Of a stretch of 64,000 nt of DNA, positions 22,862 through 64,000 are shown one piece after another. Both the position numbers and the translations under genes were made by a program. Numbering within the stretch: the first letter of the stretch is position 1; each line of letters begins with the position of its first letter. Under the pieces are notes generated by a model that saw only the letters and a list, made by a program, of their open reading frames with translations, ran no database searches and had not been told where the DNA came from. Location: assembly GCA_900095095.1 (NCBI GenBank), contig FMBT01000310.1, forward strand, positions 434,001 through 498,000. Direction: 5' to 3'. This DNA comes from Fragilariopsis cylindrus CCMP1102. Taxonomy: Eukaryota > Bacillariophyta > Bacillariophyceae > Bacillariales > Bacillariaceae.

Positions 22862-24184
22862 TTACAACCGAAACCCCTTGACACCGGTAGTTAATGACAT
22901 CCAAGTCAATTGTTCCGATGTCGGTTGGAGGAGGGGATTTTGATGCTGCTGCTGCTGCTGCTGCTGCTGCTGTCGTCGTCGATGGAATCGAATGGTTACG
23001 AGTGATTGTTTTCGTGAAGATGTTTTCGATTGTACTATTTGTTTTGATAGACGGGGAAAACGAGTCCTTGGAATCCACGATATCGTAGATGATGAAGATA
23101 TGAAGGCAGCGTGATCATCATCACCAGCAGCAGTTGTGTCATTACTATACTTGTTCTCGTCTGCAGAATTAGCAATAGTAGTAGTAATCTTGAACCCCGC
23201 TGTAAACCACAACCGAAAACGTGGACTTGATTTACATGGTAATGAATTTGATAATGAATTTTCTCCCTCAGCATTCATCAATGCACCGACTAATTTCCTC
23301 ATCAACGTAGCCTCTAATTTTTGTTCCTTTGCGTAGCTGTTATTGTTACTGTTGTTTTCCTTATCGGTTTCATTGTTGTCGACAGCGACGGTATCGTCAT
23401 CGTCGTCGTAGATCAATGATTGAAAATCAAGGAGGTAGAGCTCACGACTTTGTCCGTAGGATGGTCCAAGTGAAATAAGTAGAAATAGCGGTAATTTCTG
23501 CTTTATTTTTTGCTGCTGTTGCTGATTAACCGTCAATGCCAAACGCCATTCATCGCACAGTCGTGTAATTTGATCCATTGCTTTCGTTTGCTTCCTTCGT
23601 AACGATGGATTGATTTTTGTTCTCTTCTTCTTGGTATTTGTGTTGTTCATCCGTCGTCGCTTATTCGCTGTTGTATCATTACCAGTACCCCCGTTGTTCC
23701 TATTATTATTTGTTTTATCATGATTGGAATCGCTATTATCGCCGCTATGAATAATGTTATCATTATTATCTTGTTGTTGTTGTAGTAGCAACAACAATTG
23801 CTGGACCGACATGGGCCACAATCCACGTACGTACATTAAATGCCGTGCTAATGCTATCGGTGCCGTTCGCAATAGCCAATCAGTAGAAACCATGGATGGA
23901 ATTGGAATCGATATAATCTCATTACTATTGTCGGACTTGATATTATTATTATCATTATTATTATTATTGCTGACGTTATTGTGGACATCATAGTTTTCCG
24001 ACGGCGGCTGTCGTCGTCTTTGGTACGCTCTTGTTTTACTTGCTGATCGAGTACGTCGATCGTACCCTCTTGTTTTGACAGAAGATGAAGAATTTTTGGA
24101 ATTCTCCATGCTTGTTCTTGCTGGTCGAGTACGGCGATTGTACCCTCTTGTTTTGACAGAAGATGAAGTATTTGACTTGTCCAT
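22862..24184 (-). CDS. MAD2L1BP: p31comet / MAD2L1-binding-protein-like
   Basis: This 440-aa protein resembles the HORMA-fold spindle-checkpoint silencer p31comet, which binds MAD2 and hands it to TRIP13. Blocks that line up, from memory, with the animal protein in order are ALARHLMYVRGLWPMSVQQL, LFLLISLGPSYGQSRELY followed by LLDFQSLI, LMRKLVGALMNAEG, and the extreme C-terminus WMSLTTGVKGFRL (animal proteins end in ...KGFR plus one residue). Long Asn, Asp and Gln insertions separate the blocks. The N-terminus carries a basic 26-residue tandem repeat built on KTRGYxRRTR, two full copies and a degenerate third. No frame break. The alternative is another HORMA-like protein, but the C-terminal match is specific. 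Confidence 0.65.
   Translation of the reverse strand: MDKSNTSSSVKTRGYNRRTRPARTSMENSKNSSSSVKTRGYDRRTRSASKTRAYQRRRQPPSENYDVHNNVSNNNNNDNNNIKSDNSNEIISIPIPSMVSTDWLLRTAPIALARHLMYVRGLWPMSVQQLLLLLQQQQDNNDNIIHSGDNSDSNHDKTNNNRNNGGTGNDTTANKRRRMNNTNTKKKRTKINPSLRRKQTKAMDQITRLCDEWRLALTVNQQQQQKIKQKLPLFLLISLGPSYGQSRELYLLDFQSLIYDDDDDTVAVDNNETDKENNSNNNSYAKEQKLEATLMRKLVGALMNAEGENSLSNSLPCKSSPRFRLWFTAGFKITTTIANSADENKYSNDTTAAGDDDHAAFISSSSTISWIPRTRFPRLSKQIVQSKTSSRKQSLVTIRFHRRRQQQQQQQQQHQNPLLQPTSEQLTWMSLTTGVKGFRL
24040..24184 (-). repeat. 78-bp coding tandem repeat in the p31comet-like gene
   Basis: The phrase TACCCTCTTGTTTTGACAGA recurs 78 bp apart (24063 and 24141 on the plus strand) and encodes the basic KTRGYxRRTR units. 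A third, degenerate unit reads KTRAYQRRR. Confidence 0.7.
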
Positions 24185-24595: not shown

Positions 24596-27465
24596 TTATT
24601 TTATCTCTGGAGTAAACCAAACCAAACTAAATCTCTCACCAGAAAAGGGCTATATATAATGATGGTAAACAATGCAATTTCAAAAAGAAATTTATTGAAT
24701 ATGAATGTAAGAACAGGTTGACCATAAGACTCGTTTAATAAAAGCAACAACCGCATCTCTTTTAACACTTACTGCTGTCCAATGCCTATATATAGTGATG
24801 GTAAACAGTGCAATTTCAAAAAGAAATTTATTGAATATGAATGTAAGAACAAGTTGACCATAAGACTCGTTTAATAAAACAAACAACCGCATCTTCTTTT
24901 AACACTTTACCGTTCCTTCCAGCCGTCAAACTCTAAAGGATTGTAGAATATACTGTTAGATTCGCCCTCAACGAGTAATTCACCTCCCAAATAATTACCT
25001 AATCCAACAATCATGGATAAACTCTGACCCGATCCTCGACCTGAATCGACGTGAGGTGTGAATTGAGCATTCCTATTGACTGCACAGTGTGATGATGCCA
25101 ATCTCTTTTGTTGCTGGTGTTGACTAATATCGTTATTACTGGCAATTGTTGTCATTTCGATAGATAGAGTTTCTTCTAGTTCGAATATTGCATCAACAAG
25201 GTCTGGAAACAACTTATTTGCTCTTGGTAAATTGATCCCACCGCTTACATCTTCATCAATGAAAAGTCCGTTCTTAAACTTTGGATTGGTGATGGTAAAC
25301 GAACCAGACTGTTGTATTATTGACTCTTTAGATATGTTCATTGTAACATCACTTACTCCTCCGTTCCTGATTACTTTTGACCTGGCGATAGATGTCATCG
25401 GCCATTTACCACTTTCTGTTATATTACGCAGTATTGTCAAACTCTTCTTGTAAACGGCTGGTGTAACTTTGGGGGAAGAGATCTGAACATCGTCGACTCC
25501 TTCTCCGTACGACTCACTAAAATCCTGAATCTTATTCAGAGAAAATCGGATACGGGGACATACATTATCTCTCAAATCTACAAGCCACGCTTCTTCAGCT
25601 TTCAGCGTAGCTTCATCGAACGAACATCGATTGATAATAGATCTTTGAAAATGTGTTACGTTTGCTTGACCTATATCACCGATAGTCATCAGGTCCTTAA
25701 ATATCCTATTTCCGTTACTTGTCAATTCATCGAAATGAAATCGTGTTTCCGCCAGATACAGACGACTCGGGGGAGCAATAGGAGTTTCAATAAACACATC
25801 TAACCTGGTTGCCAATTCAAAGAAGTCTTGTGGCAACCATCCGTGGGTTATCGCTATCGAAGCACCGATGATTCGACGGACTTGCTCGTTTACAAAATCA
25901 TCTCCTCGACATTCCACAACGGCGACAATATTTTTATTCTTGTTGCTGCTGCTGCTGCTGTTGTTATGGTTGTTGTTATTGCTCGATTGAAATTGAACGA
26001 CCCTACATCTATCTAATACTTTCCAAACTGGTTTATTGTTGGGACTTGCAGATCCTTTCAAGCGAGGGTCTGCGAAGTTGTGCCAAGCACGTCGTTCTTT
26101 CCACGCAAGAAATCCGAACCGACCGGAGGCATCCTCTAACCTTTCGGTATTATAGTCCTTCCTTCCTCCCTGTATTGTAACACTCTCTGCATCTCGTAAA
26201 GTTGCTTTCAGCATTCGAAGGGAAGGAGGTTTCAAAGCTCCTCGAGAATTATGATTATTATTGTTATTATTGTTATAACGTTGCTTTTTTGGTCGTTGAA
26301 GTTCATCTTGCTGTTGCTGCCGCTCGTCATCCTTTGTTGTAGGATTGTCGTCGCTTCTACTACAATCTAACCACCAGTCTTCGATTTCCTTTCCATCCGG
26401 TAGCCATTGCAATGGTAACAGGTAATGATACGCTCGTTGTGTACAGTCCCCTTCCGCGTGAAATCGAGTCTTCGTCTTACCGCTAGACGATAATAATATC
26501 CCGGATAGTAAACGAACATCCAAATCTTGTTCCGAACTAGTCGAGGAATTATTTTCTGCTATTATTGTTGTTATTTTTTCTTCTAGATATTGTTTGGCTC
26601 GTAATAACAATTGATCGAGCAAACGAGACTGACTCCTTTGATCAACATCTCCTTCTTCATCTTCATCTTCATCCCGATCATCGTCGATATTATAATATTT
26701 TTCAATTGCTGAAACGGGGTATGAGTAACTTATTGTCATGACGTCCCCGAGTGCATCAATTCCAATTTCTTGAGACAAAGACTGATGTCTCATATTTGCT
26801 ACGGTTGATTGGGTGCTACCGGTTACGAATTGAAGATCTTTCCCCGATGCTCCATTACTGCTACTAATATTGATATTGCTGCTACTGTGAGAAACCTCGA
26901 TTTGAAGTGCATGTTCGAGAGCTTCCTTCATGAGTATCCCAGCTAATTTGGAAGAAGATATCGAGTCATAATTATTTCTATCGCCACCATTGTTTTCTTT
27001 GTCATATGTCATATTATTGACAGGAAGTCCCGTCCTATCATTAGCCTTCGATCTTGACTGATAGGATATCAAGATAATTGCGGTATCCTTTTTTATTATA
27101 TTGTTAGTTGAATTAGATGATTGGTTACTGTGGTCGTTTCGAATATGACGAAATAAAGAATTCCGAGTCGAAAATGTTGCCGAACATTCTCGACATTTAT
27201 TAGTAGTAACAACTTCTGTTGATGTTGATGTTGATGATTCCTCCTCATTTGAATTTGTTGTTGATGATGGGAAGGAGATAGCATGTTCGTTGTTATCGAG
27301 AGACGAAGACGACGACAAATAATAATTTCGCGTTGGATGATGCGTGCTTTGTTTTCTGTTATTCGTCTGCCTAGTATGGAAGGAGAATGCCGCCGTTTGG
27401 ATGTTGTTCAAACCAAGGAAAAGAAGGAATAACAAGATTACCATCCTCCATAAAATTCGCTGCAT
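24596..27465 (-). CDS. zinc finger / TruA-like / Tet-JBP-like oxygenase fusion
   Basis: About 873 aa in three exons: 24911-27465, a 13-nt exon 24773-24785, and 24596-24649. The N-terminus is a signal peptide with an A-F plastid-type motif (QTAAFSF). Then comes a C2H2 finger (CRECSATFSTRNSLFRHIRN, then DH). A pseudouridine-synthase (TruA/Pus1-like) fold follows, with RFHAEGDCTQRAYHYLLP and DDFVNEQVRRIIGASIA; the usual catalytic Asp block reads GSTQSTVANMRHQSL, with no Asp. The last domain resembles 2-oxoglutarate/Fe(II) oxygenases of the Tet/JBP group. It has FTPHVDSG (HxD), GLGNYLGGEL, HWTAPF (distal His) and GERFSLVWFTPE (Arg). The spliced end aligns residue for residue with the paralogue at 58 kb. 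The overall function is unknown. Confidence 0.7.
24650..24910 (-). repeat. twin near-identical introns around a 13-nt exon
   Basis: Intron 1 (24786-24910, 125 nt) and intron 2 (24650-24772, 123 nt) are about 94% identical by eye along their whole length. They begin GTAAAGTGTTAAAAG and GTAAGTGTTAAAAG, and both end in TATATATAG. Between them lies GCATTGGACAGCA. Splicing out both gives DGWKERHWTAPFSGERF, matching DGWKQIHSTSHFQGEQF in the paralogue. The phases differ: intron 1 is phase 2 and intron 2 is phase 0. Confidence 0.85.
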
Positions 27466-28034
27466 TATTTATTATTTGCATTGTGTTGTGCTTTTATCGA
27501 AAATTCAAATGATGCCACCGCCGCCCATCACATCACATCATTATTGTCTCAAATCCTTGTTTTTACAAAAATATGAAAAGAAAAATGGAAATTAATACTC
27601 CACGTGGAAGCAAATGGGATATATTCTTCGTTCGTCTGTCGACCGATTATTTCGTATGTGCTATCATTATTTTTACATTTTTACGTTTTACTTGGTACCG
27701 TCGGAACGTTACTTGGCGATCTTCGTGGCGTTTAACTTCCAGTAAACTATTCAAATAGAGATGGAGAGAAATAGCCACATGGAAAAAAAAACCATGACGA
27801 TAAAACGACGAGTCAACTTGACGACGAAACTAATAAAAGGAACCAACGAGCGACAACCAAAACAGAATGTAGAAGGGAAATTGTAAAATATATTTTTATG
27901 GACAAACTCTTGCTGAATCAAGTTGAGTTTTTGAACAAATTCATCTTCTCACAATTTTCTTTTGACAAGCTTTATCAAATCGAATCTTATCACTTCTTAT
28001 AACCTAAATTGTACTAACAGTATCCAAAATCAAC
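27466..28034. other. divergent intergenic region
   Basis: Shared upstream region of the oxygenase-fusion gene and the biosilica-type gene. No gene seen. Confidence 0.45.
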
Positions 28035-29741
28035 ATGAAAATCTTCTACTCGAGTGTCCTTATTGTGAGTCTTTCTGCCATGACTAGTACTACGGCTCGC
28101 AGTGGTGTCGCCGGTGTAAATGTTCATTCTTCTATCGTCGCTGGTAGCAGTACCACTTCTTCTGATATGCGCTATCTCAAAAGCAGCAAGAAAGACAATG
28201 ACGATGGTAAATCGTTGAAGAAAACTGACAAGAAAGAGGATAAGTCTGGAAAATCTCTCAAGGATGATGACAAGAAGAGCGAGAAGAAGTATTCTAAAAG
28301 CAAGTCAGAAAAGTTCACCCTTCCTCCTTCCGTCGAACCCGACAAAAAAGATGATGAGTCTGGAAATTTTCTCAAGAAAAGCGAGAAGAAGAAATCCAAA
28401 GGCAAGTCAGAAAATCCTTCCGTCGAACCCAAACAGAAAAGCGACAAGTCAGAGCCAAAGTTGGTGAAAAGTAAAAGCAAATCGAAATCAACTAAGAAGG
28501 ATACAGGTAACAACGAGCCCAAGTCGGTCAAGAACAAGAGCAACAAGTCAGTCAAAAATGAGAACGATAAGGAACCAAACTCAGATAAGAATGCATCGAA
28601 ATCGTTGAAAAAGGATGTAGACAACAACGAGTCCAAGTCAATCAAGAGTAAATCGAATAAATCTTCAAAAAAGGAACAGGACGAGGACGATGTTAAATCG
28701 TCGAAGAAATCCGACAAAGATGATAAATCCAATAAATCAGAAAAGGATGATAAGAAGAGCAAGAGCAAGAAGTCCAAAGTCAAATCAGACAAAAGCAAGG
28801 TACAAAAAAAGTCAGAAAAGTTTTCCAAAGAATCGGCTGCACCCAGTTCAATTCCTAGCTTGAGTCCTACGGACTCGCCAACTGATTCGCCGACCATACG
28901 TCCATCAGATTCACCAACGGATTTGCCTACGGTAGCACCGACCAACAGTCCTACAAATGTACCTACTGTATCTCCTACTTTTTCTCCCACTGTATCGCCT
29001 ACTGTATCGCCTACTGTGCCGCCTACTGTGCCACCTACTAATGGCCCTACAAAGTCTCCTACAGTCTCTCCAACAGATTCGCCTACTTTGTCGCCTACTA
29101 TATCTCCGACTAACAGTCCTACAAAATCTCCTACGGAATCTCCAACAAATTCGCCTATTGTATCGCCTACAGAATCACCAACAGATTCACCTACGTCATC
29201 CCCGTCGGACAGTCCATCTGCGGCACCAAGTGGAAGCCCATCTACGACCCCAACCTCCAGTCCATCGGACAGTCCATCTGTGGCACCAAGTGGAAGCCCA
29301 TCTATGACCCCAAGCTCAAGTCCGTCGATTAGTCCCTCTGTGGGTCCATCCTCTGGGCCAACCAGAAACCCATCAGATGTTCCTAGCTCAATTCCTAGTA
29401 TGATTCCCACACTATCGCCTACTATTCAGCCCAGTGAGATCCCATCTGCTAGTCCAACCGCCATTGTTATTCAAGGGGCTGCTGTTACGACGAGCGCAGT
29501 AATTGGAGCAATGGCCGTGTTGGCTCTTGTTATTGGAGGGGGCTTCGCGCTCCAATTTATGAGAAAGAAAAAGGATGATAATGACGAAGAAGATCTTGAA
29601 CGCGATCTTGAGACCGAATCTCCTCCCATGAATGAAAACAACTTAACTAATAAGCCATCATTGGGTGTCCCGTGTATCAATTGGGGTGGACTTGACAATG
29701 GCCATAGGATGAAGAGCGAAATCAGTAGTGGTAGATGTTGA
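28035..29741 (+). CDS. Lys/Ser- and PTS-rich type I membrane protein, biosilica-type
   Basis: This 568-aa protein has no enzymatic domain. Order: a signal peptide (MKIFYSSVLIVSLSAM); an R-Y-L motif near residue 46, which fits the RXL processing site of diatom silaffins and cingulins; a Lys/Ser/Asp region (about 50-270) full of KSxKK, KKSKSKK and SKKSDKDDK clusters; a Pro/Thr/Ser region (about 272-475) of SPTDSPT and PSDSPSxAPS repeats; one transmembrane helix (about 485-508, AVIGAMAVLALVIGGGFALQ); and a short acidic cytosolic tail. Polycationic Lys/Ser stretches that can be phosphorylated, together with a membrane anchor, resemble proteins of the silica deposition vesicle or cell wall. That role is inference from composition. 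Confidence 0.75.
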   Translation: MKIFYSSVLIVSLSAMTSTTARSGVAGVNVHSSIVAGSSTTSSDMRYLKSSKKDNDDGKSLKKTDKKEDKSGKSLKDDDKKSEKKYSKSKSEKFTLPPSVEPDKKDDESGNFLKKSEKKKSKGKSENPSVEPKQKSDKSEPKLVKSKSKSKSTKKDTGNNEPKSVKNKSNKSVKNENDKEPNSDKNASKSLKKDVDNNESKSIKSKSNKSSKKEQDEDDVKSSKKSDKDDKSNKSEKDDKKSKSKKSKVKSDKSKVQKKSEKFSKESAAPSSIPSLSPTDSPTDSPTIRPSDSPTDLPTVAPTNSPTNVPTVSPTFSPTVSPTVSPTVPPTVPPTNGPTKSPTVSPTDSPTLSPTISPTNSPTKSPTESPTNSPIVSPTESPTDSPTSSPSDSPSAAPSGSPSTTPTSSPSDSPSVAPSGSPSMTPSSSPSISPSVGPSSGPTRNPSDVPSSIPSMIPTLSPTIQPSEIPSASPTAIVIQGAAVTTSAVIGAMAVLALVIGGGFALQFMRKKKDDNDEEDLERDLETESPPMNENNLTNKPSLGVPCINWGGLDNGHRMKSEISSGRC

Positions 29742-35168: not shown

Positions 35169-37007
35169 ATGATCTGTTCAATATACAATGAAACCATAAT
35201 CATAACGCTCCTCCTCCACTTCATTAGCGTCGGGGCACAAAACTATTATCTTGATCGTTTCAATTATGATATCACAGTCCAACGGAGTGACGGGTTCACA
35301 GATTATCAACCAGAGGATTGGGAACAAATTCAATGTGATGAAAAATCTTCATTAGAGTCATGTTTAGCTTATACTGATAAGTGGGAAACGGGCCGTGATT
35401 GGGCTATCAAAACTAACTACTGTCAATGGTGTCCAGAAGGAGGTGATCCCTCTCTGTGCAATAAAAATCGACATCATCAATCTCCAATCAACCTAGAACG
35501 TGTCGTAGGCTATGAACCTGACACACATTATTTAACAAACGAGTGCATCGTGAGTATCATTAGGACAATCATGGATGTTTGATTACGTATCAATAATATC
35601 ATAATGCAAAATAAATGATGCACGACGAACCTATCACGTGCTTGTATCCTTCCAACAAACTAACTTCTTATACTTATTTCTCAACAGGACATACATTGGA
35701 TGAAATATGAAGATTCAGTTTGTTCTTTGGAACAACTAATTGACGCAGACGCATTTAGTATCGAACGGCATAGTTTGAGGATATCCCAGCCGGTTGCCAT
35801 TTATGACGACATCAACCAAGACATCGATGGTGTCCCTGATGGTGTACGGCTGCAATGTCGAGAGAAAGGAATAGGCAGTCGCTTCGGTAGAATTGATTTC
35901 TCGAAGGGATTTAGTCAATGGTGGTACTTAAGTCATACTGATATCAAAACTCCATCGGAGCACACCCAAGATGGGAAACGATACGATGCAGAAATCCAGC
36001 TCCATCATTTTTATAGTGTCACAGCCGAGGAAGCTGGTACCAACAACGAGGTCGCGACTGTTTCGATCTTCGCTCAGGCCTACGATGATGCAGTCCCATA
36101 CCCATTCCTTGACAAGGTAATTTGTCAATGGAGACGAAAGGAATATGATGTACGAAAAGAATGCGGACTAGATCCGGTGCAATCGACGTATCCAGGTTGC
36201 TTTCCACTCAAACGAAGTAAACGAAATCTTCGTAATGAACAACAGCAACGATCGATCTCTTCTCCCACTAATTCCAAAAAGGATATGGACTTCCTAACAG
36301 CACAAGATGTCATTCTCTATAACGATCAACATAGAAATAATCCCAATCATACCAACGTGAAAATTCACATGGATGAAGGTAATTGGGCACCGGTAGAAGA
36401 AAAGGATTGGGATACCTGGATCAAGGAACAGTCAAATGAGATGACTGAAAAGGAAGATATATATCATAGAATGAGAAATGAATATCATGGAGGCAATCAT
36501 ACGGAGGAACTGCATCGTGAATTCCGTAAACTTTACCAGTATGAGGAACTAGAATGGTTCAATTATTGGCCAATGTTAGGAGTTCGGACTGAATATTATT
36601 TTCGTTATTCTGGCTCACAGACCATACCTCCGTGTTATGGAAACTTCATCGATATGAGCCGCGTCGGCACAAATCATTGGAGGGTGATGAAGGATCCCAT
36701 CCGAATCCATAGTCGTCAACTGCTCGAACTTCAACGATTAAGTGCTGAAAGGATCGCTCCAATTGGTAGTACCGTTAACGCATGTCAATCTGATACAGCA
36801 GCAAAGGTCACAAGAGACCCAATGGATCCTGGTAAGATTGTAGACGTAAACAACGCTCGACCGCTCATGTCTTGGGCAAAGCCACATTTCAAAACCTTTT
36901 GTGAATGTAAAGATTGGGAAAGTAAGTGGCCCGAAGATAGAAATTGGTGTGCCATTGAAGATATAAACGAACGTTTCTACGATAAGCCTTACAATTACGG
37001 CTGGTAA
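35169..37007 (+). CDS. secreted alpha-carbonic-anhydrase-like protein A
   Basis: This protein has 566 aa in two exons (35169-35549, 35688-37007). The 138-nt intron has donor GTGAGT and acceptor CAACAG. A signal peptide ends near VGAQ. Alpha-CA landmarks in order are HHQSPINL, PSEHTQDGKRYDAEIQLHHF (holding the E106 and H119 equivalents) and SGSQTIPPCYG (T199 equivalent). Where human CA II has FHFHWG with two zinc ligands, this protein reads WWYLSHTD, so the canonical H94-x-H96 pair is not seen. Paired Cys (CQWCPEGG, CECKDW) are conserved in the paralogues. It may be a weak or dead carbonic anhydrase, a binding protein, or use another metal geometry. The frame is intact, making it the best reference copy of the family. 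Confidence 0.75.
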
Positions 37008-39899: not shown

Positions 39900-42196
39900 T
39901 CAAGCTGGAGAAACTGTTTGACATTTAGGACAAAATACTAAAGAATAATGAACAGGAGCTGTTAGTCTTCCTTTACAACCCTGACACCTCACAGCGTGTG
40001 TATTACCTTTAGATATAGCATCCCGAGTCTCCGTAGCTCCACGTGTTTCTAGTAGACTTCGTCTTCGTGGTAATTTTGTGTGACAGTGTCGTCTTTGTCT
40101 TACATCTCTTTCCCCTAAAAGTGACGACGACGGCGACGACGGAATAGCAACTGTAGCATCCGACGACGACGGTAGCAGTGGCATACTCGTTGACGACGAG
40201 ATGGACGGTGCTGATAAGCGTCGGGGCATCATGGTAGAATGACCCGTAGTGGTACATAGCCGGTATTATTATTACTATTATTATTAGTATTGTTCTTCTG
40301 GTATTCTTCCATTGCCTTGGAATTGACTGGTTAAAAATGCGTCATTGTTGTCATCACTTTTATCCAATGTTTCTTTAACTGTTCTCTTCCCCGACCAAAC
40401 AACTTCTTTCTACATCAGTTGTAGATAACGAACATGCGGGAGAAATCTTGTCCGAGTATGAGTGCGATGATGATGATGATGACGATGCCGCTGCCGTGAT
40501 TTCTTCCATTGCCTTGAATTGACTGATTAAAAATTCGTCATTGTTGTCATCACTTTTATTCAATGTTTCTTTAGAGCTGTTCTCTTCCTCTACCAAAAAC
40601 TTCTGTTTACATCAGTTGTAGATAACGAATACGTCGAGGAAATCTCGTCCGAGTATGAATATGAGTGCGATGAGTAATGATGATGATACTGCCGCCGTGA
40701 TTTCCGCTTCGTGAAGGGATAGTTCCAATGCTAATTGTAGGTCTTCGTCATCATCGTCATCCTGATTTTCTTCCTCATGCAAGTCTTCCGTAAATGGGAT
40801 ATGATGAGCTGTAGGAAGAAAAGAAGGAACAACGGTTTTTGATGATCGAGTTACCGGAAAAGAAATGTGATCATAATCATCTAATGATCGATAACATCGT
40901 ACCATCGGAGTCGGAGTGGTATCCAACAATGATGATGATAATACTACGCCGTAGTGTGACGATAAAGATGATAATGACGATGATGTCGAACTACTTCGTA
41001 TAGCAGGTTCGGGAATCATAACAGCACCAGGTCGTTCTTGTTCTTGTTCTTCGCTGCTCAGCTCTTGTAGTGCTTCTGCAGATGCAGCTTCTTCTAATGC
41101 TGATAGATAAAACGAGCTTTTCGTTGTTGTAGTAGTAGCAGTAGTAGAAGTAGTAGAAGTAGCAACCACAGTATCAGTATCGTTAATATCTCCAGATACG
41201 TATACGCTGTTGGTAGTATGAGGAGCATAGTTGTCCTCATCATCATTAGCAGCCTGATGTTGATGCTGATACTGATTCCTTATTCTTCGTTGATCTTGAT
41301 GATCTTGTTTTTGTTGTAACGATAACTCTTCTTCTTCTTCGTCAGTTAATGCAGCTTCTTCGATTGCCGATCGATAAAATGAACTTATCGTCATCACAGT
41401 AGTAGCATTAGTAGTAGTCGCTTCTTCTTCTTGTTGTTTTTTCCGATTGTAAAACAGACTACTGTTACTGTTGGTGTTGGTGTTGTATCCGTCGCTGTGA
41501 CGCCGTTTTATGTGTTCATCTTCTTCTTCTTCTTCCCCCACTTCTTCTTCTTCTTCTTCTAAAAGATTTGGATATAAAAAAATCCTTTTTCTTCCTTCAC
41601 GAATGGTACTACTAGAGGTAGTAGCACTGCTCGGTTGCCATAGATTCAGATTCAGATTCAGATTCGCATTGGCATCAGCAGTAGCAGCAGTCTCCCCTTT
41701 ATTGTTGCTACTATTCTCTTGATCTTGATCTTGACTGTGATGACTATAACTATGACTACTTTCGATTCTCCATTCATCGATTTCATCTTCTTCTTCTTCT
41801 TCTTCTTCTTGGTCTTTATCATTCGATACTATCATAATTGCATCATGATATCGTAACGAAGCTTGATAAACTGAAATTCCTCTAGTAGTTGTCGAGGAGG
41901 TGCTACTGCTACTGCTACTGCTGCTGCTGTTGCTACATCCAAGGATACACGATCGCATCTCTTCAGCGTTTAAGCTCGTACCCACAGGAGATGACCATCG
42001 TCTACTGCTGCGATTATTAGAGCCTATTTCGTTTTTTTCTGGTCCTCCTCTGCCCACCACCACTACCACCTTCTTTATCTTCCTTGCAACAGATATTCGT
42101 TAGTAATTTTTCTGATGTTGTTGTTGTTGACGAAGAAGGAGAGGAAGAAGGAGGAGGGTTGTGTTTGTGATGCAATGAAAATGTCGTCATTGTCAT
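39900..42196 (-). CDS. UIM plus zinc-ribbon protein, several frame breaks
   Basis: One gene spread over several frames, roughly 700+ aa. The likely start is the ATG at 42196 (MTMTTFSLHH), and a break follows in a run of seven A near 42030. The long middle is acidic and Ser/Thr-rich, with two related units, SSFYRSAIEEAALTDEEEEE and SSFYLSALEEAASAEALQEL. It ends in DEDLQLALELSLHEAE, a good ubiquitin-interacting motif (acidic-x-x-A-x-x-x-S-x-x-E). After a duplicated segment, the C-terminus has VRCQGCKGRLTAPVHYSLVF plus CPKCQTVSPA, two CxxC knuckles like an LSD1-type zinc ribbon. A ubiquitin-linked role is inferred from the UIM alone. At least three frame changes separate the parts. Whether the zinc-ribbon piece belongs to the same protein is likely but not proven. 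Confidence 0.5.
40303..40700. repeat. about 198-bp tandem duplication at the 3' end of the UIM gene
   Basis: The block starting TTCTTCCATTGCCTTG recurs 198 bp later (about 40303-40500 and 40501-40700). Shared phrases include CATCAGTTGTAGATAACGAA. The copies differ by several substitutions and small indels. Both translate to similar Ser-rich segments such as SLSTTDVxRS. Confidence 0.75.
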
Positions 42197-48060: not shown

Positions 48061-49056
48061 GTATCATCTTAAACCGACACGTGCAACTTTTTTCATACTT
48101 TCGGTACTTATAAAAACTAATACGTCTGGTGCTTGACTATTTTGATTTGTTATTGATATATTGATGTGCCTGTTATTGATATCATTATTGTCAATTCTAT
48201 TATTATTGATAGTAGTTGTTAGTAAAATTTTGCTACTACTTCTTGTTGTGAGTGAATCTTAAAAGTAACTAAACAAAAGAGAGAGAAGAAAAAGAGAGAG
48301 AGGCCTGAGCCCAGCTCGCTCCTAGCAGCCAATTTCAAGGTTTGGGTGGAATGTATGTGTATTCACGGCAAGCTTTAGCTTTTTTTTAGTGCAATAGCTC
48401 CCTTTTTCTAGTTCTATTTTTACTCCTAGCATCCAATCATTCAATCTGTCTATTATAAAGTCTAAGCTGTACATGAGCGTAACACTCAAGTTAGGGCTAA
48501 TGATGAGTTGATTGTTGTGTTACTGAGTTGACCTACCTCTAGCCAAGTGAATGGATAGTTAGAAATGCTCCTATAGGACCTCTGTAACCTCATCAACAGT
48601 AGCTTCTTCAGCTATCTTCCTGTTCTAAATTCCAGTGCTTGATGGAATATGTAGCAATTTCCAGGTTTCTTCTCTCTTACTCGTCATCTGAGATGTGATG
48701 ATGATCTGATGGACTTTATCATCATATTATAATTATATATACTGTGATTCCTACTATCCATTCCTCTCCTCCTACTTCTAAAATCAAAGCTAACTACAAT
48801 ATCTGTGTGTACAGTAGCCTTGGGTACTTTATTCTTTATCCTGAAATTTATATATACATAATGCTGTTTGCTTTTTTTCTTGTGTGTGTGTGTGTGTGTG
48901 TTTTTAAGTTGGAAAGCCAAAAGACATACAGTGTATTTGCTGGTAGTACGTACTGGTACATCCTTGATTTGAAAAAAATCATAAAGATCAGCAAAACTCA
49001 CATTGCGTGCGCGATGATTATTGTCACAGCTACAATTGAATCAAATGAGTCAAAAG

Positions 49057-49089
49057 ATTCAGCTCAAATATTTGATTTGTGAGCTGAAT
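49057..49089. repeat. 10-bp inverted repeat
   Basis: ATTCAGCTCA and its exact reverse complement TGAGCTGAAT are separated by 13 nt. A third partial copy, TTTCAGCTCAT, follows at once. Confidence 0.7.
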
Positions 49090-49689
49090 GATTTTCAGCT
49101 CATGGGACTCAAATATGACTCAATTTTTTACCTGGCCCTGTGGTTAAGCCGCGTGTAGGGTTTTCACTTATTAAAAAAACATTTACGCGCGATAAGCAGC
49201 GAGGCATGGATAGAGAGAGAAAAATGAGGAGGAGGAGAGAAAAAAATTGGCTTGCGCAAAAAGTTCGTTGCTTAAATCGCAGGGTGAGACTTAACTTCAA
49301 AACACACTTATGCAACGAAGTGAAATCGTCGCCAAAATTTATTTTTGTGATGTCGAAAGACAAAAATGTTAACATACCGCTAAGCATACTTACTATTATT
49401 GAAACATAGATGATACGGTAGACGAAACATAGTTAGTTATAAGCTCCATCTGCTCACTCACTCATCGATCGTATACGGAAATTATAAATGATACTCTCTT
49501 TGGTACTGCTGTGAAACAAGTCTAAAAGAACACAAATACTGATCTAGAAAAAAATTCATTCGTTCATTCCGACTAGCAAGACCTTTTCCCCAGCCAGACT
49601 AGAACTGATACGATTTTGACATCACTTTCAAGTAAAAAATCCTGCCTCAATCTGGTTAAATTTGTGTAGCCAAGACAAAATTATCAACA

Positions 49690-51457
49690 ATGCCGCGAAT
49701 GCGAAATGTTTTGCAGCAGAGAGCTGAACGGAAACGGAAACAAGAAGAGAATAAAAAAGTGTTATTAGAAGTAGAAAAATATCCTCCTCAATGTGATCCC
49801 AAAGACAATGAGATAGAATTTAGTGGTTTGTATGTCAAGGCGCAGGTCGAACCGGATGGAATAAGTGCTGGTTCAATATACTCACTAGAGGCGAAGCCCA
49901 CCAGAGCAACTATGGCAGAAACATTTTCCTCCGGAGAAGAAAATACCGCATATTCGGAAGATGATGACCACATTATCTTCACGGAACCTAAGAAAAATCT
50001 CACCTTTTCACAACATGATCGGAATCGTCTTGATGATAAAGGAGAATTTACTGATCTTGCCTATCAATCGTCGAGAGGAAATATGTTTATCGACTTGGTT
50101 CAGGAAGATGAAAGAAACAAGAATGTTGGGATCGACAGCTCCCAATACAGTAGTTATGACGAGGAAGAATGTGATATCGTCGCTGGTAGAGCAACGACGA
50201 CTCAGATGGATCAGCCCGAAACTATCCAATTTGTCGATAGCGAGGATGGAAAGGTCTTCGCTATTACACCACGAGTTGGTAAGAAAGTTTACGCTACAGA
50301 AGAAGAGAGTATCGAAAATGAAGAATGCTCGAAAACATTGAATACAAATCTTGATTCACTCAATTATCTTCCTAGTTTGAGCGAAGATGATAGTGCTCAG
50401 ATGGATCAACGGGATCTAACTCAAAACAATACAACCATAACCACAACCGTTTTCACCGTTTACAAGTAGACATCAGAGAGGGGAATCGTATGAAGAAGAT
50501 GATCAATGCGGCGGAGTTTATGACAATGGTGATATTCACGAGGCAGAAGAAGCTTCTATTCCCCAAGGCAACTCCGAATTGTCCGAATTGTATGACTGTG
50601 ATGATGGAGAGCTGTATTTTCCTGATAATAATTTAGAAGATCACCAGCAAGGAGAGGCGTTTGATCCTAATAACCAAGTTCGATCGTACGATTTTGAAGA
50701 AGACGGAACCTTTTTCGAACAGTTACGTTCCGAACATACTCAGCCCGTAAATGATGGGCCATCTCAGTCCGAACATTGGCGGTCAATAAAGGAGGAAATC
50801 CACTCTGGACATCCACAGTCAACGCATCAAAATGGTGCGTATCTTGATACGGCCAACGGCGAACAATACTTACCGAATGCATTGTCAGATCCTGATAGTA
50901 ACTCTTCGTGGGAAGAAGGCAGTTTTGGTACCGGTGCATCAAGAACTATGAGTCGTATTGATACTACTTACGATGATGATGATGGTACTTACGCTGAGAC
51001 CCTCGATGGAACCGAGAACTACTCCGATGACGATAATACATTCGCAGAGTATGATGGCGATCGACCATTTGTCCGAATCTTAAAGAAATTCCGTGACATG
51101 AACGTCGGAGGTCAGAAATTGGGTAGTGAGGAAGTTGAGGAAGAATAGAGGAAACCATAGAAGAGCAAAAGATGGACAGACACGACGGGGCAGGCCTTCC
51201 AGGAGTCAGACAATGTAAATGTATTTGAACGCCTTGGTGAGATTGGAATAGACATCTTGAACGAAACCATTGAGCATGCTGAAAAAGCAAATATGTCACC
51301 TCGTAAAGAGGCAGAAATCAGGGTGGAACTATTATCAATACCTTCGCCGATCTATTTTCATGTGGTGCTCCTTCTCGATATTAGTGCTAATGGCATGGCA
51401 TGCATTTAATAAAGCATGCATTAAAAAGCAGAAGCTCCTCATAATATTTTGCCGATG
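49690..51457 (+). CDS. acidic protein with possible C-terminal tail anchor, frame breaks
   Basis: No family recognised. From the ATG at 49690 the first part (259 aa) starts basic (MPRMRNVLQQRAERKRKQ) and is then acidic. A frame change near 50462 joins it to a second acidic part (SELYDCDDGELYFPDNN ... RPFVRILKKFRDMNVGG). A further change after about 51148 leads to plausible coding sequence (QAFQESDNVNVFERLGEIGI) and then, in another frame, a hydrophobic stretch (FMWCSFSILVLMAWHAF) near the end. This is consistent with a tail-anchored protein with a long disordered cytosolic region. Composition is even across the breaks, so one gene is likely. The exact C-terminus is uncertain. Confidence 0.5.
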
Positions 51458-51584
51458 ATCCTTGAGACTGCTCTATAATAACTTAATTTATAATTGTATT
51501 CAATATATTATGATGTTAAATGCCGTCCTTATTTCTTTATTATTCTATTCCTTTTAGTTGTGCAGGTATGAGTTTCGACCATAG

Positions 51585-53562
51585 CTAAAAGCCATCGCTT
51601 TCAAAGTTATACGGCGTCAAGTACAAACGTTCTTCGAGATCCTCTGTCTCACACCAAGCTTGGTCTTCCGGCCACTTGCTCACCCAATCTTTACATTCAC
51701 AAAAGGTTGGATCGTGGGCCTCCTCGTCCGTGGACATCAAAGGGCGTGCAACGTTGACCCTTCCATCATCTGATACTTTTGCTGCAGTGTCAGGCTGACA
51801 GGGCATGACGGGGTCGTCTGGTGGTGCAATGCGATCACGGATCAGACGTTCCAGTTCTTTTAGTTGTGTCGACTGTATTCGAATGGGATCCTTCAATACA
51901 CGCCAGTGATTTACCCCTCGCTTGCTTGCCCTGGTGTCGCTCCCGTAACAGGGAGGAATCGTTGCCGTTCCTTGGCTACATTGATACATCACATTTCAAG
52001 GGGGAATGTAAGACAACGAAGAAAAGCTGTTAGTTCGTGCTGCATATTATCTAACCTTAGTAAAAAAAAGTCTAAAGAAATTATTAACTTACTATCGGTA
52101 GTAGTACTCCGTACGGGCTCCCAACATCGGCCAATAATTGAACCATTCCGTTTCATCTCCTCGATTAACCTTCGATGAAGATCGTCCGTATGAACGCCGT
52201 TGTATTCCTCCTGTAGGAGTTCACGATAAAGACTCTCGTCATCATCCATTTTTTCACTTTGCTCGGAAATCCAGATATCCCAGTCCTTTTCTTCGGCGGG
52301 AGACAAATTCACCTCATCCATATGTATATTCAACAACTGATTGTTATAGGGATCGTCACGGTGTAATTCGTTATGGTAAATAGCATCCGCAACAGTCCGA
52401 ACAGGATGCTTTTTTACTTGTGGAATACCTTCTGTGGAATTGGAATTGAAAATTCTCGTTTTCAAGTTCCAAACAGGGGGTGTCAACGGAAAACAACCTG
52501 GATATGAGAATTCGATTGGATCTAATCCACATTGTTTGCGTGTACTGAACTCCTTTTCTCGCCACCGGCATATGACTTTATCTAAATAGCGGTAGGGTGG
52601 CGCATCGTCGTACGCGTTCATAAATACAGATATAGCAGCCATTTCGTTATCGTAATCTATTGAATAAAAATGATACATCTGTATCTCAGCATCATAGCGT
52701 TTCCCTTCTTGGGTATGTTCGGATGGAACGTGTAAATCTGTATGACTTAAATACCACCAATCACTAAAGCCCTTACTAAAATCAATGCGTCCAAATTTTG
52801 ATCCACGTCCCTTCACCCGACATTCGAGTTTCACTCCATCGGCTACACCATCCGTGTCGTTGACCATGTCTTTGTATACAGTAATGGGTTGACCGATCCG
52901 TAATCCATGCCTTTCGATTGTAAATTGATCTTGTTTTACTAATTCTTCCATAGAACAAAAACTATCTTCATATTTCATCCAGTGAAGATCCTACATTAAA
53001 GTATAATACAAAAAAGAAAAATTGAATGCATATATACCTGAGTAAGTCAGCCAGTCGATATATTATTATTAGTATTATAGAGATGACAAGGATAAGGCAT
53101 AGGCACTAAGCACAAACTTACGATACATTCGTTGGCAACAAATGAAGTGTTCGGATCTAATCCAACCTCACGCAATAAGTTGATCGGAGATTGATGGTGT
53201 CTACCACATTCATCCGATCCAACCGGACACCAACGACAATAGTTATCTGTAACAGTAAAATTTATACCCTCGTGCCATTTGTGTGGGTATCCCTCACATT
53301 GGTCAAGAGATTCTGTAGTTCGTTCATCACATTTTATCTTCCCCCAATCCTTTGGACCGTAGTCGATAAATCCATCTTCTCGATTGGTAGTTGTTGTGTC
53401 GTAATTAAATCTATCCAAGAAATGTGTGCTATTGTTTTTGGCAGAAACGATGCGACTTGTATGCGAAGAAACGAAGAAGAAGAAGAAGAGTAGGAAAACC
53501 TTGACGATCGACGACAACAAGCCGAAGACGGGATTTTTTCCTGTGGTCAACATCGACGTCAT
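51585..53562 (-). CDS. secreted alpha-carbonic-anhydrase-like protein B
   Basis: Paralogue of protein A in three exons: 53122-53562, 52094-52990 and 51585-51975. Intron 1 (NECI|DLHW) sits exactly where protein A has its only intron. Intron 2 (118 nt) interrupts YYYRY|QGTATIPPC and is absent from A. It has a hydrophobic signal segment (VFLLFFFFFV), then RHHQSPINL, WWYLSHTDLHVPSEHTQEG, YDAEIQMYHFYS, TIPPCYG and CECKDW. As in A, the two-His FHFHWG motif is missing while the Glu and third His are kept. One single-base frame break lies near 52155, just before WFNYWPMLGARTEYYY. It points away from copy C, sharing a 755-bp upstream region. Confidence 0.72.
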
Positions 53563-54317
53563 CCTTGTTCTAATTCCTGCTGCTCGACTGGATAGACAGG
53601 GTTGTTTTTACTATGTATGTAGTAAATCTCAATGCAAATTATCTGGCTAATAGCGGAAGCGGTAGAGTTATTCGTGCTTAATAGTACTGTTATGCTAAAA
53701 ATGTATATAAAGTGACGACGAGTGCATGAGAAGAAGGATTTTTTAGAGAGATAATGGCGAATGGCTGATTTCGATTTTAGATCGAGAAAAACACAGTATT
53801 TACGATTGTAGATTGACGAGAAGAGTAGATTTTTCATAACACTGCTACTAAATAGCTAATTCAATCGTGCATACTTCGATACTGTCAAATAATTTGGCCG
53901 CCTACAGTATCTAAACTAAGCAAGAATTCGCCGAAAAGTTGACGCGAAGTGTACTCTGTAGCTAGGGTTTGGAAACTTCAATATATCCATGTCTCAATAT
54001 TTTTGCGGTACACTCAAAACTTAAAAAATCATTTTGAGAGCTCAAGCCACGGACGCTTTTTTATCGTGAACAACAAAACATCACATACCGTATGTACTTG
54101 AAGTAGCTACTATAGTAGCGTGGAGACTCTCAACTTCACAAATTTGTTTGAAAAAGAATCGTTTGAACCACTTCGCACGAAAAACAAGAGAAATCAACAA
54201 TCGAGAAAGAGAGAAAGGTTTTCTGTCGTCATAAAAAGGAAAACAATAGACTGTACAAACATTAATCTAATCAATCATTTTCTATACATTTAAGTAGTAG
54301 AAGAGGAATAGCATAAA
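53563..54317. other. divergent region between carbonic-anhydrase-like genes B and C
   Basis: A candidate bidirectional promoter. A TATATAAAGTGACGACG stretch lies near 53702-53717. No gene seen. Confidence 0.4.
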
Positions 54318-56883
54318 ATGATCATCAACAAGAGCAACATCAACGGTAACAGCAAAGGTCTTTGTATCTTTCTGTTGCTTTCTTCTTTCCTACTATTCAT
54401 GTCAATCATTGAAGTTCGTGGCCAGAACAACGATAATCGTGGACTATACCTCGATCGGTTTACGTATAAGAACGAGGACGTCAGTCGCAAAGAAAATGGT
54501 CAAACATTCATCGATTATTCACCTCAGAATTGGGATGACATTAAATGCAACGAAGGTTCAAAACTTGACGAATGCGTCGGATATGTTGATAAGTGGACAA
54601 CTGGTAGAGACTGGGGAATTACAAAAAATAATTGTCGTTGGTGTCCAGCGTCGAAGGATGGATCTGGATCTGATAATAACTGTGGAGTTCACCATCAATC
54701 GCCTGTGAATTTACAACGTGAGGTTGGTTATGACTTCAATACTTCCTCTCCGTATTATTCTGATATTGCCAACGAATGTATCGACCTTCATTGGATGAAA
54801 TATGAAGATTCGGTACGTTTATGTCATATCATATCGTATATCATATACGAATCGAATTTAATCGAATCGAATCGAATTTGATCAAAGCATCCCATCGTCG
54901 TATCTACCCATCTCACATAATAACAAAAACATTTTCCCTTCCTTACTCTATTTTTCTCCTCACTTTCTTCTTCGACTTCTTCTTCTTTTGCTTCACTTTA
55001 CCAATACAATTAAAGTTTTGTACGTTAGATCAATTGGAAGATGCTGATGCTTTTACCATCGAACGACACGCTCTACGTATCGCCCAACCAATTTCGGTGT
55101 ATGATAATTTTGACGACGATAAGGATGGTGTTCGAGACGGCGTTCGTTTGAATTGTCGTATTGATGGAAAAGGTTCAAGATTTGGTCGTATCGATTATTC
55201 AAAGGTTTCAGCCAGTGGTGGCATTTATCACAATTGATATACACACACCCTCAGAACACACCCAAGATGGACAACGTTACGACGGTGAAATCCAATTGCA
55301 ACATTTTTACAGTGTCACTGGAAGCGAAGCGGGGTAGGTTAAAATAAAATACAGCAAACAGCAACAGCTAGCACTGCTTGAAATGGTAGTAGCGGAAGCG
55401 TAGTACTACGTGATATTTCATTAACTAACTAACTACTGACTAACTAACTAACCAACTAACTCGTTTGCTTGCTATTTGTATCCACTCTATTTTATTCTAC
55501 TCAGTGTCGACAACGAAATGGGTACAGTTTCTGTTTTTTTACAGGCCTACGACGACGCACCACCATACCGGTATTTAGATAAAGTTATCTGCCAATGGAG
55601 ACGAAATGAATACAATGTACGAAAAGAATGTGGATTAGATCCCGTGCAATCGACCTATCCAGGTTGTTTCCCGCTCAAACGAAGGAAACGAAATCTCGTA
55701 ATCACGAAGACATGGCACTGCGTTGATACTGATACGGATGCTCTCACTCCCACTAATGTTACCAAGTTGATGAACGACAACAGGCCCAAACGCCATCCGA
55801 AAGGATTCCGTACAATTCATGATGTTTTACTCTATAACAATCAACATAGAAACAATCCCAACCACTCCGATGTAAAGATTCATATGGAAGAAGGTAATTT
55901 TGGTCCAGCAGATGAAACTATAGACTGGGATAGCTTTGTGGCGGAACAAAGCAAAATAATGGGAGATGAAGAAAAACTGTACCAAAAGATGATTGCAATT
56001 GAGAATGATGCCAATGAAGAACTCGTCCACGAGCGATACTTACGTGAATTAATTTCCTATGACGAGATTCCATGGTTCAATTATTGGCCAATGTTAGGAG
56101 CTCGGACTGAATATTACTTTCGTTATTCTGGCTCACAAACGATTCCTCCCGTAAGTTTTATTTATTACGACTACGTTACAGTACGTCATCGTGCATATGC
56201 GATGACCAGGGAAATTTTCATCCACCCAATCAACCCACCTTCTTACTCAACCAATTCATTCTTCTTTGCCCCTCCAATTTATTTTACTGAAACAAATAAC
56301 GTAATATCCAGTGTTATGGAAATTTCGATGGCGGTTCAAGAAAAGGTACGTTACGTTGATATACATATACATATACATATACATTACATACCTACCTAAA
56401 TACTAAATAAGAATGTTTGTTTGAGATCGACTGTAATAATGTAAAGTATATTTTGAAATCACCTCTTTTCTTATCGTAAAATACTGATATAAATATTTTC
56501 TTAATTTCCCATGGTATATGATGAAAACATAAGGCACAAATCATTGGCGTGTATTGAAGGATCCTATTCGTATCCACCGACGTCAATTGGCTGAGCTCCA
56601 TCGACTCATCGCGGAACGGATCGCTCCTAATGATGATCCAGTAAAATCTTTGAGGTGTAAACCCGATACCGCAGCCAAGGTCAAACGTGATCCAGTGAAT
56701 CCTAATAAGTTTGTAGAAGTCGATGTGGCACGACCATTACAATCATGGGAAAGAACCCACTTCAAGACCTTCTGCGAATGCAAGGATTGGGTTTCAAAGT
56801 GGCCAGAAGATAGAAACTGGTGCACCATTGAAAATATGCAGGAACGTTTCTATGATAAGCCTTACAATTACGATGCATCCTAA
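54318..56883 (+). CDS. secreted alpha-carbonic-anhydrase-like protein C, five exons
   Basis: Paralogue of A and B. Exons: 54318-54812, 55016-55333, 55505-56150, 56312-56345 (34 nt) and 56534-56883; all introns are GT-AG and phases fit. It lacks the intron shared by A and B (NECIDLHWMK is continuous) and has four of its own, at EDS|F, G|V, IPP|C and K|G. A signal peptide (GLCIFLLLSSFLLFM) precedes CGVHHQSPVNL. The metal-site region reads WWHLSH..IDIHTPSEHTQDG, then IQLQHFYS, SGSQTIPPCYG and CECKDW. Two single-base deletions close together in exon 2 (near 55203 and 55230) break the frame around WWHLSH. This may be error or an early step of decay. The rest is well conserved. Confidence 0.68.
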
Positions 56884-57406
56884 TCCTAATCAAGAAAAGA
56901 AGAAATCGAAGTGCGATACATGCTTATGTTCATTCCATGTATGCACCCAATAGAAAACAATGAGAAGATGAACGAATTTCGACCCCAATTCGTTTGCGGG
57001 GAGAGAGCCAACTAAAAATGCAGGAGGGTTCAATCCTGCGAAGTGGTCTATCCAAATTGCTATTTATATTTATAGATGGTAGCAACGACTTTTACAGAAA
57101 ATAGATATGTATTCAGAGTGGGACACTTCTATATAGAAAAACTAACAAGATTAGATAGTGTCTTTTTATGAATCATATTTTTCTACAATTAAGTTCTATG
57201 TTATTTTGATTTGTACTATGATGGGTCGTCAAGTTGACGATACACAATACCTACTGGAAGTACTCTACTACTAGCATTACTTTTGGTCAACTATGACAGC
57301 ATGCTTTTTCTAGCTAGTGTAATGTACTCTATATTATTAATGTTTAACTTTCTTCTTCGCTTTCTATCTACCTCAACTAATTGTATAGCGATAGGCGACA
57401 TTACCA
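56884..57406. other. convergent intergenic region
   Basis: Nothing coding. GCAGGAGGGTTCAATCCTGC near 57021 is a small hairpin, not a tRNA arm. Confidence 0.5.
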
Positions 57407-57835
57407 CTAAAATCCATTCGTCGTGAAGTTATAGGGTCTATCATAAAGTCGTTCGTTGATATCTTCTATGTGGCACCAATCCTGGTCTTCCTTTCACTTA
57501 CTGCCCCAATCTTTGCATTCGCAGAATGTTTCGTAATGTGCCTTGGTTGTAGATTGAACTGGTCGTGCGGTAGTGACCTCCAAGATTTGTCGAGGATCGT
57601 TTGGATCTCGGCTCACTTTGGCCGCAGTGTCAGCCTGACAAGGTACGATAGGATCATCTGAAGGCGCAATCCGATCTGCCATCAGACGTTGAAGTTCCCC
57701 TAATTGACGAGGATGGATTCGGATGGGATCCTTCATTACACGCCAGTGATTTGAATTGCGCCTCGAATTTTCGATCCACTTTCCGTGACAAGGCGTGAAC
57801 GGGACTGTTCGATAATAGTAATATTACTATCATTT
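57407..57835 (-). pseudogene. 3' fragment of a carbonic-anhydrase-like gene (D)
   Basis: Only the last 130 or so residues of the family are present: TVPFTPCHGKW, NHWRVMKDPIRIHPRQLGEL, DTAAKVSRDPNDP, CECKDWGSK and LYDRPYNFTTNGF. An in-frame stop replaces the Trp of CKDWxSKWPED. Sequence upstream of about 57835 shows no match, so the copy is truncated at its 5' side. It is a host-gene remnant at the edge of the B/C/D cluster. Confidence 0.75.
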
Positions 57836-57964
57836 TTTAAGTCACACCCTTTCTATCTCTTGTTCGGTAATATTATGTGCAATATAAGCTTACTGTACTG
57901 CAAATACTGTAGGTGACTTATTTCATTGATAGTACGGCTAATTTTCTATGCGACTCTAAAACCT

Positions 57965-60900: not shown

Positions 60901-61023
60901 ATTATTTTGTTTAACTTCTGCTGACTTAATAGCGAGATCATAACAGCTTATACTTGACCGAAGATGCCGAAAAACAGCATTTCGCGACTCAAATACTTCG
61001 TTGCAATACTTACAACTTGCCAT
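57965..61023 (-). CDS. zinc finger / TruA-like / degenerate Tet-JBP-like / FkbM methyltransferase fusion
   Basis: About 1,019 aa from the ATG at 61023 (MASCKYCNEVF). It is the paralogue of the 24.6-kb gene without its signal peptide and with a methyltransferase added. Order: finger (CKYCNEVFESRNAVFRHLRS); TruA/Pus1-like fold (TKFHAEQSCTQRSYQYLIPL, DGFLQQQVRRMVAAVIA), with no catalytic Asp in the equivalent TFSLATAAKLRHPSL; oxygenase-like domain (VNRNVEFTPHFLNGEG, GLGDYIDGEFNVDG, GEQFSLIWFTPEM), in which the HxD Asp and the 2-oxoglutarate Arg are replaced; and a C-terminal FkbM-type SAM methyltransferase (DTVLDIGAHIGVFCRYAL, ITFVKIDSEGGEIGILL). One frame break near 60237 in an A run separates KFKK-type sequence from LKLLESRDV. 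No introns occur in the oxygenase region. Confidence 0.72.
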
Positions 61024-61554
61024 ATCGCTTTTTTGTGTATTTGTTTTCGTTCGGGGGGCGGATTTGATAACGATAATACGGTACAATTTGAAATTGTACT
61101 AGATGAAAATAAATAGGCAGCTCAATTTTTAATTTCACTTTTTTGATGGCTGAAAATTGAGCGAAGATGCATATTCCCCCCCCCCCCCCCAGAAAATCTC
61201 ATCACAAAATAAATAATAAGTTGGAATCTATAGAGCATAGGGTGCTAATAAGTATGAGTTCAAAGTTCAGATGAGACAAAAAAAATTAGAATTATTCCTC
61301 AACTTAAATTACCTTGAGCTAAATGGATGATTGCGGGTAAAGAGATTGGTACATGTTAATCGGCGAAATCAATCTCCTTTCTTTTTTGGTAGAAAATTAA
61401 TACAATCTGAATTTAACTTGAATATTTTAGATTATAGATTAGTTGAATGATATGTACATTATCGAATAGAAAAGAATCAATCGTGAATGAATGAACGAAT
61501 GAATCAGCGTTTTGCACGGCCAATAGTCGAAAAAGCAGTTGCGTTGAGAGAGAG
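61024..61554. other. intergenic region with poly-C run
   Basis: A run of about 14 C lies near 61177-61190. Nothing else recognised. Confidence 0.5.
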
Positions 61555-63620: not shown

Positions 63621-64000
63621 TGCCGTTCAATTATACACTGATATGAACTGAATAAACAAGAGTAATTTTTATATGTTATTTCTTTTTGGTGTCGTCGCCC
63701 TCTCTCTCTCTCTCGCTACCGCAATTATTTATGAGGCAGAGCCAAATTGATGAGCTCTGATTGATTAGTGGCTGTTATGTTATTATATTGGGTTAATGTT
63801 GTTTTATGTGAAGAGTGGTCGACATATAGTGGTGGTAATAATAACTTCGAATTCGTTTTTGTGAGGAAGACTCTCTTTGTTGACACCATCTTTCCATGTC
63901 ATCGAAATGTTCGCTCAATGTCAAGAATACGATCAAGCATTCGTGCATGCTTCGTCGCCGCTTTTAGAAAGAAAGTAATTAATTTTCAGTCATGGATAAA
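63621..64000. other. upstream region of the ARM-repeat gene
   Basis: Contains a CT-rich tract near 63698-63714. No gene recognised before the window ends. Confidence 0.45.

Follow-up and report, generated by a model that had tools for sequence, protein, structure and literature searches.

How new introns originate has long been unsettled, and few cases allow both the source and the copy to be recognised. Drosophila Xdh is reportedly a case of intron duplication, and intron gain by reverse splicing is said to have been demonstrated later in yeast. The relevant part of a 2012 review (PMC3443670) counts 14 unambiguous events of intron transposition, which have indirect support, and lists no demonstration in vivo. 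The Drosophila data treated in the sections of PMC3296678 on this subject include no case of intron transposition. Introns less than 32 nt apart are deemed very unlikely to coexist in one gene in the passages of PMC2891723 on near positions, where genes with both were removed, and tandem duplication with sliding is preferred there over reverse splicing for the cases of that study. In the survey portion of PMC9860276, introners are present in 175 of 3,325 genomes, with families kept at 4 introns or more. Near-identical, seamless introns and stwintrons with long inverted repeats have been described in fungi, according to the summary parts of PMC8469720. Among the matches listed by a search of the open-licence literature, none dealt with near-identical introns next to each other in a diatom or another stramenopile.

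Here we analyse an intron pair in a window of 64,000 nucleotides, the whole stretch of DNA that was studied. The two introns sit at the 3' end of a gene's coding region, of which the other ~2.5 kb form one open frame. The parts of this host gene and of a paralogue in the window are as follows.

24911..27465, (-) strand: first coding exon of the host gene, its start assumed to be the first ATG of the open frame
24786..24910, (-) strand: intron 1, 125 nt, GTAAAG...TATATATAG, phase 2
24773..24785, (-) strand: micro-exon GCATTGGACAGCA, 13 nt, holding the last base of an Arg codon and then His-Trp-Thr-Ala
24650..24772, (-) strand: intron 2, 123 nt, GTAAGT...TATATATAG, phase 0
24596..24649, (-) strand: last coding exon PFSGERFSLVWFTPEIK and stop codon
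57965..60244, (-) strand: open frame of the paralogue, without either intron in the C-terminal region (~58.87-59.5 kb) and running on into an FkbM methyltransferase domain

The first coding exon, which appears to have no intron within it, encodes a C2H2-like finger, a TruA-like region and a C-terminal domain; Pfam matches to C2H2 fingers and to PF01416 fell short of the curated cut-offs. Its open frame, 27468-24907 (-), terminates within intron 1 sequence. The 58.9-kb paralogue is split over two overlapping open frames, 57965-60244 and 60235-61098 (-). The former has TruA-like and FkbM methyltransferase matches and the latter, by eye, a finger-like stretch. By its apparent HxD...H...R motif, of which the micro-exon would supply the second His, the C-terminal domain may be a 2-oxoglutarate/Fe(II) dioxygenase. 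Searches of Pfam, PHROGs and NCBIfam with three proteins returned no family at E up to 10, PDB sequence searches gave weak, seemingly unrelated matches only, and a structure model built on an alignment of two rows was of no use, with a mean pLDDT of 29.9. In the 58.9-kb paralogue the putative motif is without its Asp, and Gln takes the place of Arg; this copy of the domain may be inactive. Among viral contigs, 9 stretches matched a pattern of the domain, none of which was confirmed by tblastn.

Are both introns needed for a full protein? Left unspliced at intron 1, the frame reads DGWKER*, which is an immediate stop. Retention of intron 2 preserves the frame but encounters stop codons, and skipping of the 13-nt exon results in a frameshift. 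A single longer intron was also considered; of the GT-AG pairs tested between the DGW and the GER codons, for introns of at least 30 nt, none gives back the C-terminus in frame. Removal of both introns yields DGWKERHWTAPFSGERFSLVWFTPEIK. Splicing of both, with inclusion of the 13-nt exon, is the predicted outcome, and to judge from the reading frames the full protein must today require the removal of both introns around a 13-nt internal exon. Such an exon between near-identical introns places a recognition demand on the spliceosome.

Two intron-free paralogues serve as references. The first is on contig C384, is uninterrupted at both intron sites (DGWKQRHWTMPFNGERYSLVWFTP) and has RHWTMPF without interruption at the position of the micro-exon. 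It is closer to the host gene than the 58.9-kb paralogue, which is likewise without introns at both sites (DGWKQIHSTSHFQGEQFSLIWFTP). The host C-terminus and the C384 paralogue are 73% identical over 73 codons with no gap. Of the 24 codons across the two junctions, 8 are the same in both genes, 12 show synonymous differences and 4 nonsynonymous ones; for the first 14 codons compared in the last exon the corresponding numbers are 5, 7 and 2. The synonymous excess over the 24 junction codons indicates that the coding parts of the host gene were selected in the past. As far as such a comparison of sequences goes, the codon differences show past selection and not present-day working splicing.

The two introns are identical in 118 of 125 alignment columns (94.4%), with 5 substitutions and 2 single-base gaps. 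This likeness spans their full length and reaches the splice borders at both ends. A sensitive BLAST search with intron 2 matched intron 1 at E = 4.7e-51, which excludes chance likeness. The first-pass annotation had described near-identical GT-AG introns of 125 and 123 nt in differing phases around a 13-nt exon, and this was borne out (118/125 columns; phases 2 and 0). Its gap-free alignment of the spliced product to the intron-less 58.9-kb paralogue holds at the site, and the second, closer paralogue on C384 aligns likewise. We also agree with its proposals that one intron sequence recently came to occupy a second site, and that the exon was not duplicated along with the intron, the coding length being unchanged relative to the paralogues.

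The sequences that flank the two introns differ on either side, and homology therefore halts at the splice borders. No base matches across the borders of intron 2; at intron 1 one base matches on each side, giving at most 2 bases. Border comparison thus found no target-site duplication of more than 2 bases at either intron, and at intron 2 there is none, given that nothing matches across its borders and that coding length is unchanged relative to both paralogues. An ungapped comparison of the outer 25 bases of the introns showed no terminal inverted repeat, and an inverted-repeat search gave 3 inverted pairs, each with at least one arm outside the introns. The 13-nt exon does not recur before intron 1 or after intron 2. 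A structured element was rejected, as the introns fold no better than shuffled sequences (z-scores of 0.72 for intron 2 and 0.18 for intron 1). Fungal introner-like elements are, by the account in PMC8469720, symmetrical, strongly folding introns, and these z-scores show no such folding. In a stwintron one intron interrupts the splicing signal of another; here the 13 nt in between are coding and are matched in the C384 paralogue.

Elsewhere in the window, inverted repeats lie at 9962-10011/10990-11039 (98%) and 10232-10410/10659-10837 (76%) and might mark a DNA transposon or fold-back element. The frame at 28008-29741 encodes a large protein with SPT/SPS repeats, presumably resembling a diatom cell-surface protein. 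A cluster of related genes, which we read from sequence as carbonic-anhydrase-like, occupies 35.3-37.0 kb (+), 51.6-53.6 kb (-) and 54.3-56.9 kb (+), and a 3' fragment containing a stop codon is present at 57.4-57.8 kb (-). Window introns of similar size to the pair, identified by eye from related exons and frames, measure 138 nt (35550-35687) and 117 nt (51976-52092), and a further one starting at 46235 is ~110 nt, counted by eye.

Does the pair belong to a larger family? The assembly that was searched comprises 67.9 Mb in 818 contigs and, to judge from the proteins, is probably that of a diatom. BLAST-type searches of it with the pair and with a single intron found no copy outside the pair, and four pattern searches allowing up to 3 mismatches matched only this locus in the 67.9 Mb. 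One pattern matched intron 2 only, as expected from an extra base at that place in intron 1. In such DNA searches very common words are skipped, repeat counts are lower bounds and a missing match does not prove rarity. As a gauge of sensitivity, the DNA search with the first exon gave 26 further matches (35-67 query bases, 80-94% identity), all from one low-complexity stretch; these short matches aside, the exon is single copy at the DNA level in the assembly, as is the flank downstream of the gene apart from short matches. A protein search of the assembly found no second copy of the host gene besides the paralogues. A viral or prokaryotic source was rejected, with no match to an exact 25-base pattern in viral contigs or to an exact 39-base pattern in genome contigs. 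An introner family was rejected on copy number, since at least 4 introns are needed for a family and two copies were found. The first-pass annotation had called the gain introner-like and proposed a genome search with the 123-nt intron for further copies. That search of the 67.9-Mb assembly returned the pair only, and the label is not supported, an introner being a dispersed family.

How old is the pair? The introns differ at 5 of 123 aligned bases, or 4.1% (95% interval 1.3-9.2%). For comparison, contig C328 (19.8 kb; L017, L018) is a second haplotype of window positions 48780-64000, from which it differs at 100 of 14,948 aligned bases overall and by 0 to 5.3% per 500-base bin. Two stretches judged mostly intronic differ by 2.6% (5/193) and 0.9% (3/330), and one intron by 0/117. 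The intron copy is young, of about the local allele divergence or somewhat older. That the pair is young, as had been remarked of it, therefore stands; with 5 of 123 bases different, extreme youth is improbable. The divergence between C328 and the window is itself patchy: the 500-base bins between 56.5 and 64 kb are free of substitutions and others differ by 4-5%, a pattern that resembles the aftermath of recent mitotic recombination or inbreeding.

A recent and precise local copy of an intron is well supported by these sequence comparisons. We put at about 0.58 the probability that an ordinary spliceosomal intron was copied border-to-border to a second position in its gene, 13 nt from the first, probably via reverse splicing. 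As in intron transposition, the source intron is recognisable and has a seamless copy in a new place; either of the two may be the source. In favour of this reading, no other copy was found in the assembly. A route through RNA is favoured in two ways. The homology ends exactly at the splice borders, and coding length is unchanged relative to two paralogues, as seamless insertion of spliced RNA predicts and blind copying of DNA does not. Copying would then have used the spliced intron RNA ("intron transposition"). The lariat would have been reinserted by the spliceosome near its own junction, the product reverse transcribed, and the locus would by recombination have regained this product beside the original intron, so that the stretch between the two intron copies became a 13-nt micro-exon. 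The position of the pair at the 3' end appears to fit where a cDNA-mediated change would be expected. Counting against reverse splicing, neither site has a strong AG|G proto-splice sequence, the borders of the exons being ACG|G and GCA|C. On the same side stand the literature statements given above from PMC3443670, PMC3296678 and PMC2891723. Exact borders are also no proof of an RNA route, since seamless insertions could be favoured by selection itself. Reverse splicing seems the best-fitting route of copying, though it is unproven.

More tentatively, the whole change might have been made in a single event. A spliceosome still holding the mRNA and the lariat would have reinserted the intron a few bases off. 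Its product, once reverse transcribed, would have paired with the locus, and both offset loops would have been kept, with the micro-exon between them. If such a self-templated hop were general, near pairs would be direct snapshots of reverse splicing giving rise to intron gain.

Could the second intron instead have been made at the DNA level? The intron and the 13-nt exon may have been duplicated in tandem and one exon copy lost, or a nearby break may have been filled with a copy of the intron. No reverse transcriptase would be necessary, and local near-tandem repeats are not uncommon in the region, at 40304-40704, at 24030-24184 (~470 nt off) and at L015 3759-4084; these are duplications of ~200, 80 and 160 nt, respectively, at 83-85% identity. 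The simple one-step form is ruled out by the lack of any repeat of the 13-nt exon to the left or right. For the two-step form, the sequence flanking the pair likewise shows nothing left of a second such exon, and two exact events at the splice borders would be required; the filling of a break requires exact ends with no more than 2 bases of microhomology at the joins. A DNA route would thus need two exact events, or selection picking out an exact one, and we think it unlikely.

Less likely again is a joining of two alleles that carried the same intron, shifted or independently reinserted, at positions 13 nt apart. The 4.1% difference between the introns does fall inside the 0-5.3% range of alleles per 500-base bin, and sliding of introns, with similar ones at neighbouring positions, is known from Drosophila in the cases presented in PMC2891723. 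Recombination between alleles would still call for a move of the whole intron by 13 nt, and for a crossover confined to those 13 nt. The assembly holds no second allele of the host gene that we could find; this may be a matter of assembly, as C328 carries the other allele of ~48.8-64 kb.

We regard as improbable, to a slightly greater degree, a low-copy introner that inserted twice here and whose other copies are missing from the assembly, lost or diverged beyond recognition. In its favour, aquatic species are over-represented among those with introners, and some families are without target-site duplications and inverted repeats, as given in the portions of PMC9860276 on these features. No other copy was found in the assembly, however, nor any in viral contigs by exact matching of one 25-base pattern; two insertions 13 nt apart with none elsewhere would be unlikely. 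An artefact of assembly, or an intron pair that does not work in an already decaying gene, is very improbable: both haplotypes are partly present in the assembly (C328) and unspliced intron 1 stops the frame at once, but a simple repeat error would not give introns that differ at 7 columns and sit at two sites, and 12 synonymous against 4 nonsynonymous differences over 24 codons relative to C384 speak of past selection.

Set against known systems, the intron pair has several partial likenesses. The stwintrons and sister introns of the Hypoxylaceae, as portrayed in the parts of PMC8469720 on them, are also near-identical and seamless, with no target-site duplication. Those introns are nested and have long terminal inverted repeats (PMC8469720, same parts), whereas here separate introns flank coding sequence and no such repeat was seen. 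Introners and introner-like elements share the intron-to-intron similarity up to both splice borders, but here there are two copies only, in one gene, and no dispersed family was found. Introners of the DNA-transposon type have a target-site duplication, a terminal inverted repeat or both; here no target-site duplication exceeds 2 bases and no inverted repeat was seen, although not all introner families have these features. The near intron pairs and sliding cases of Drosophila, in the sections of PMC2891723 that set them out, resemble this locus in positions less than 32 nt apart and in introns that are sometimes similar. There the positions are in orthologous genes (PMC2891723, same sections) and here both are in one gene. 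Closest are the intron transpositions of Oikopleura and Mycosphaerella, which, as outlined in parts of the reviews PMC3443670 and PMC4122922, likewise have a source intron that can be recognised and a copy of it seamlessly placed elsewhere. Relative to the cases outlined there, source and copy here coexist 13 nt apart in one gene with a micro-exon between them, and no further copies were found. Source and copy are thus available within ~260 bases, with two intron-free paralogues as references and no other copies found to confuse the comparison. The intron pair is a new example of a rare, already known kind, and its coexistence 13 nt apart is unusual.
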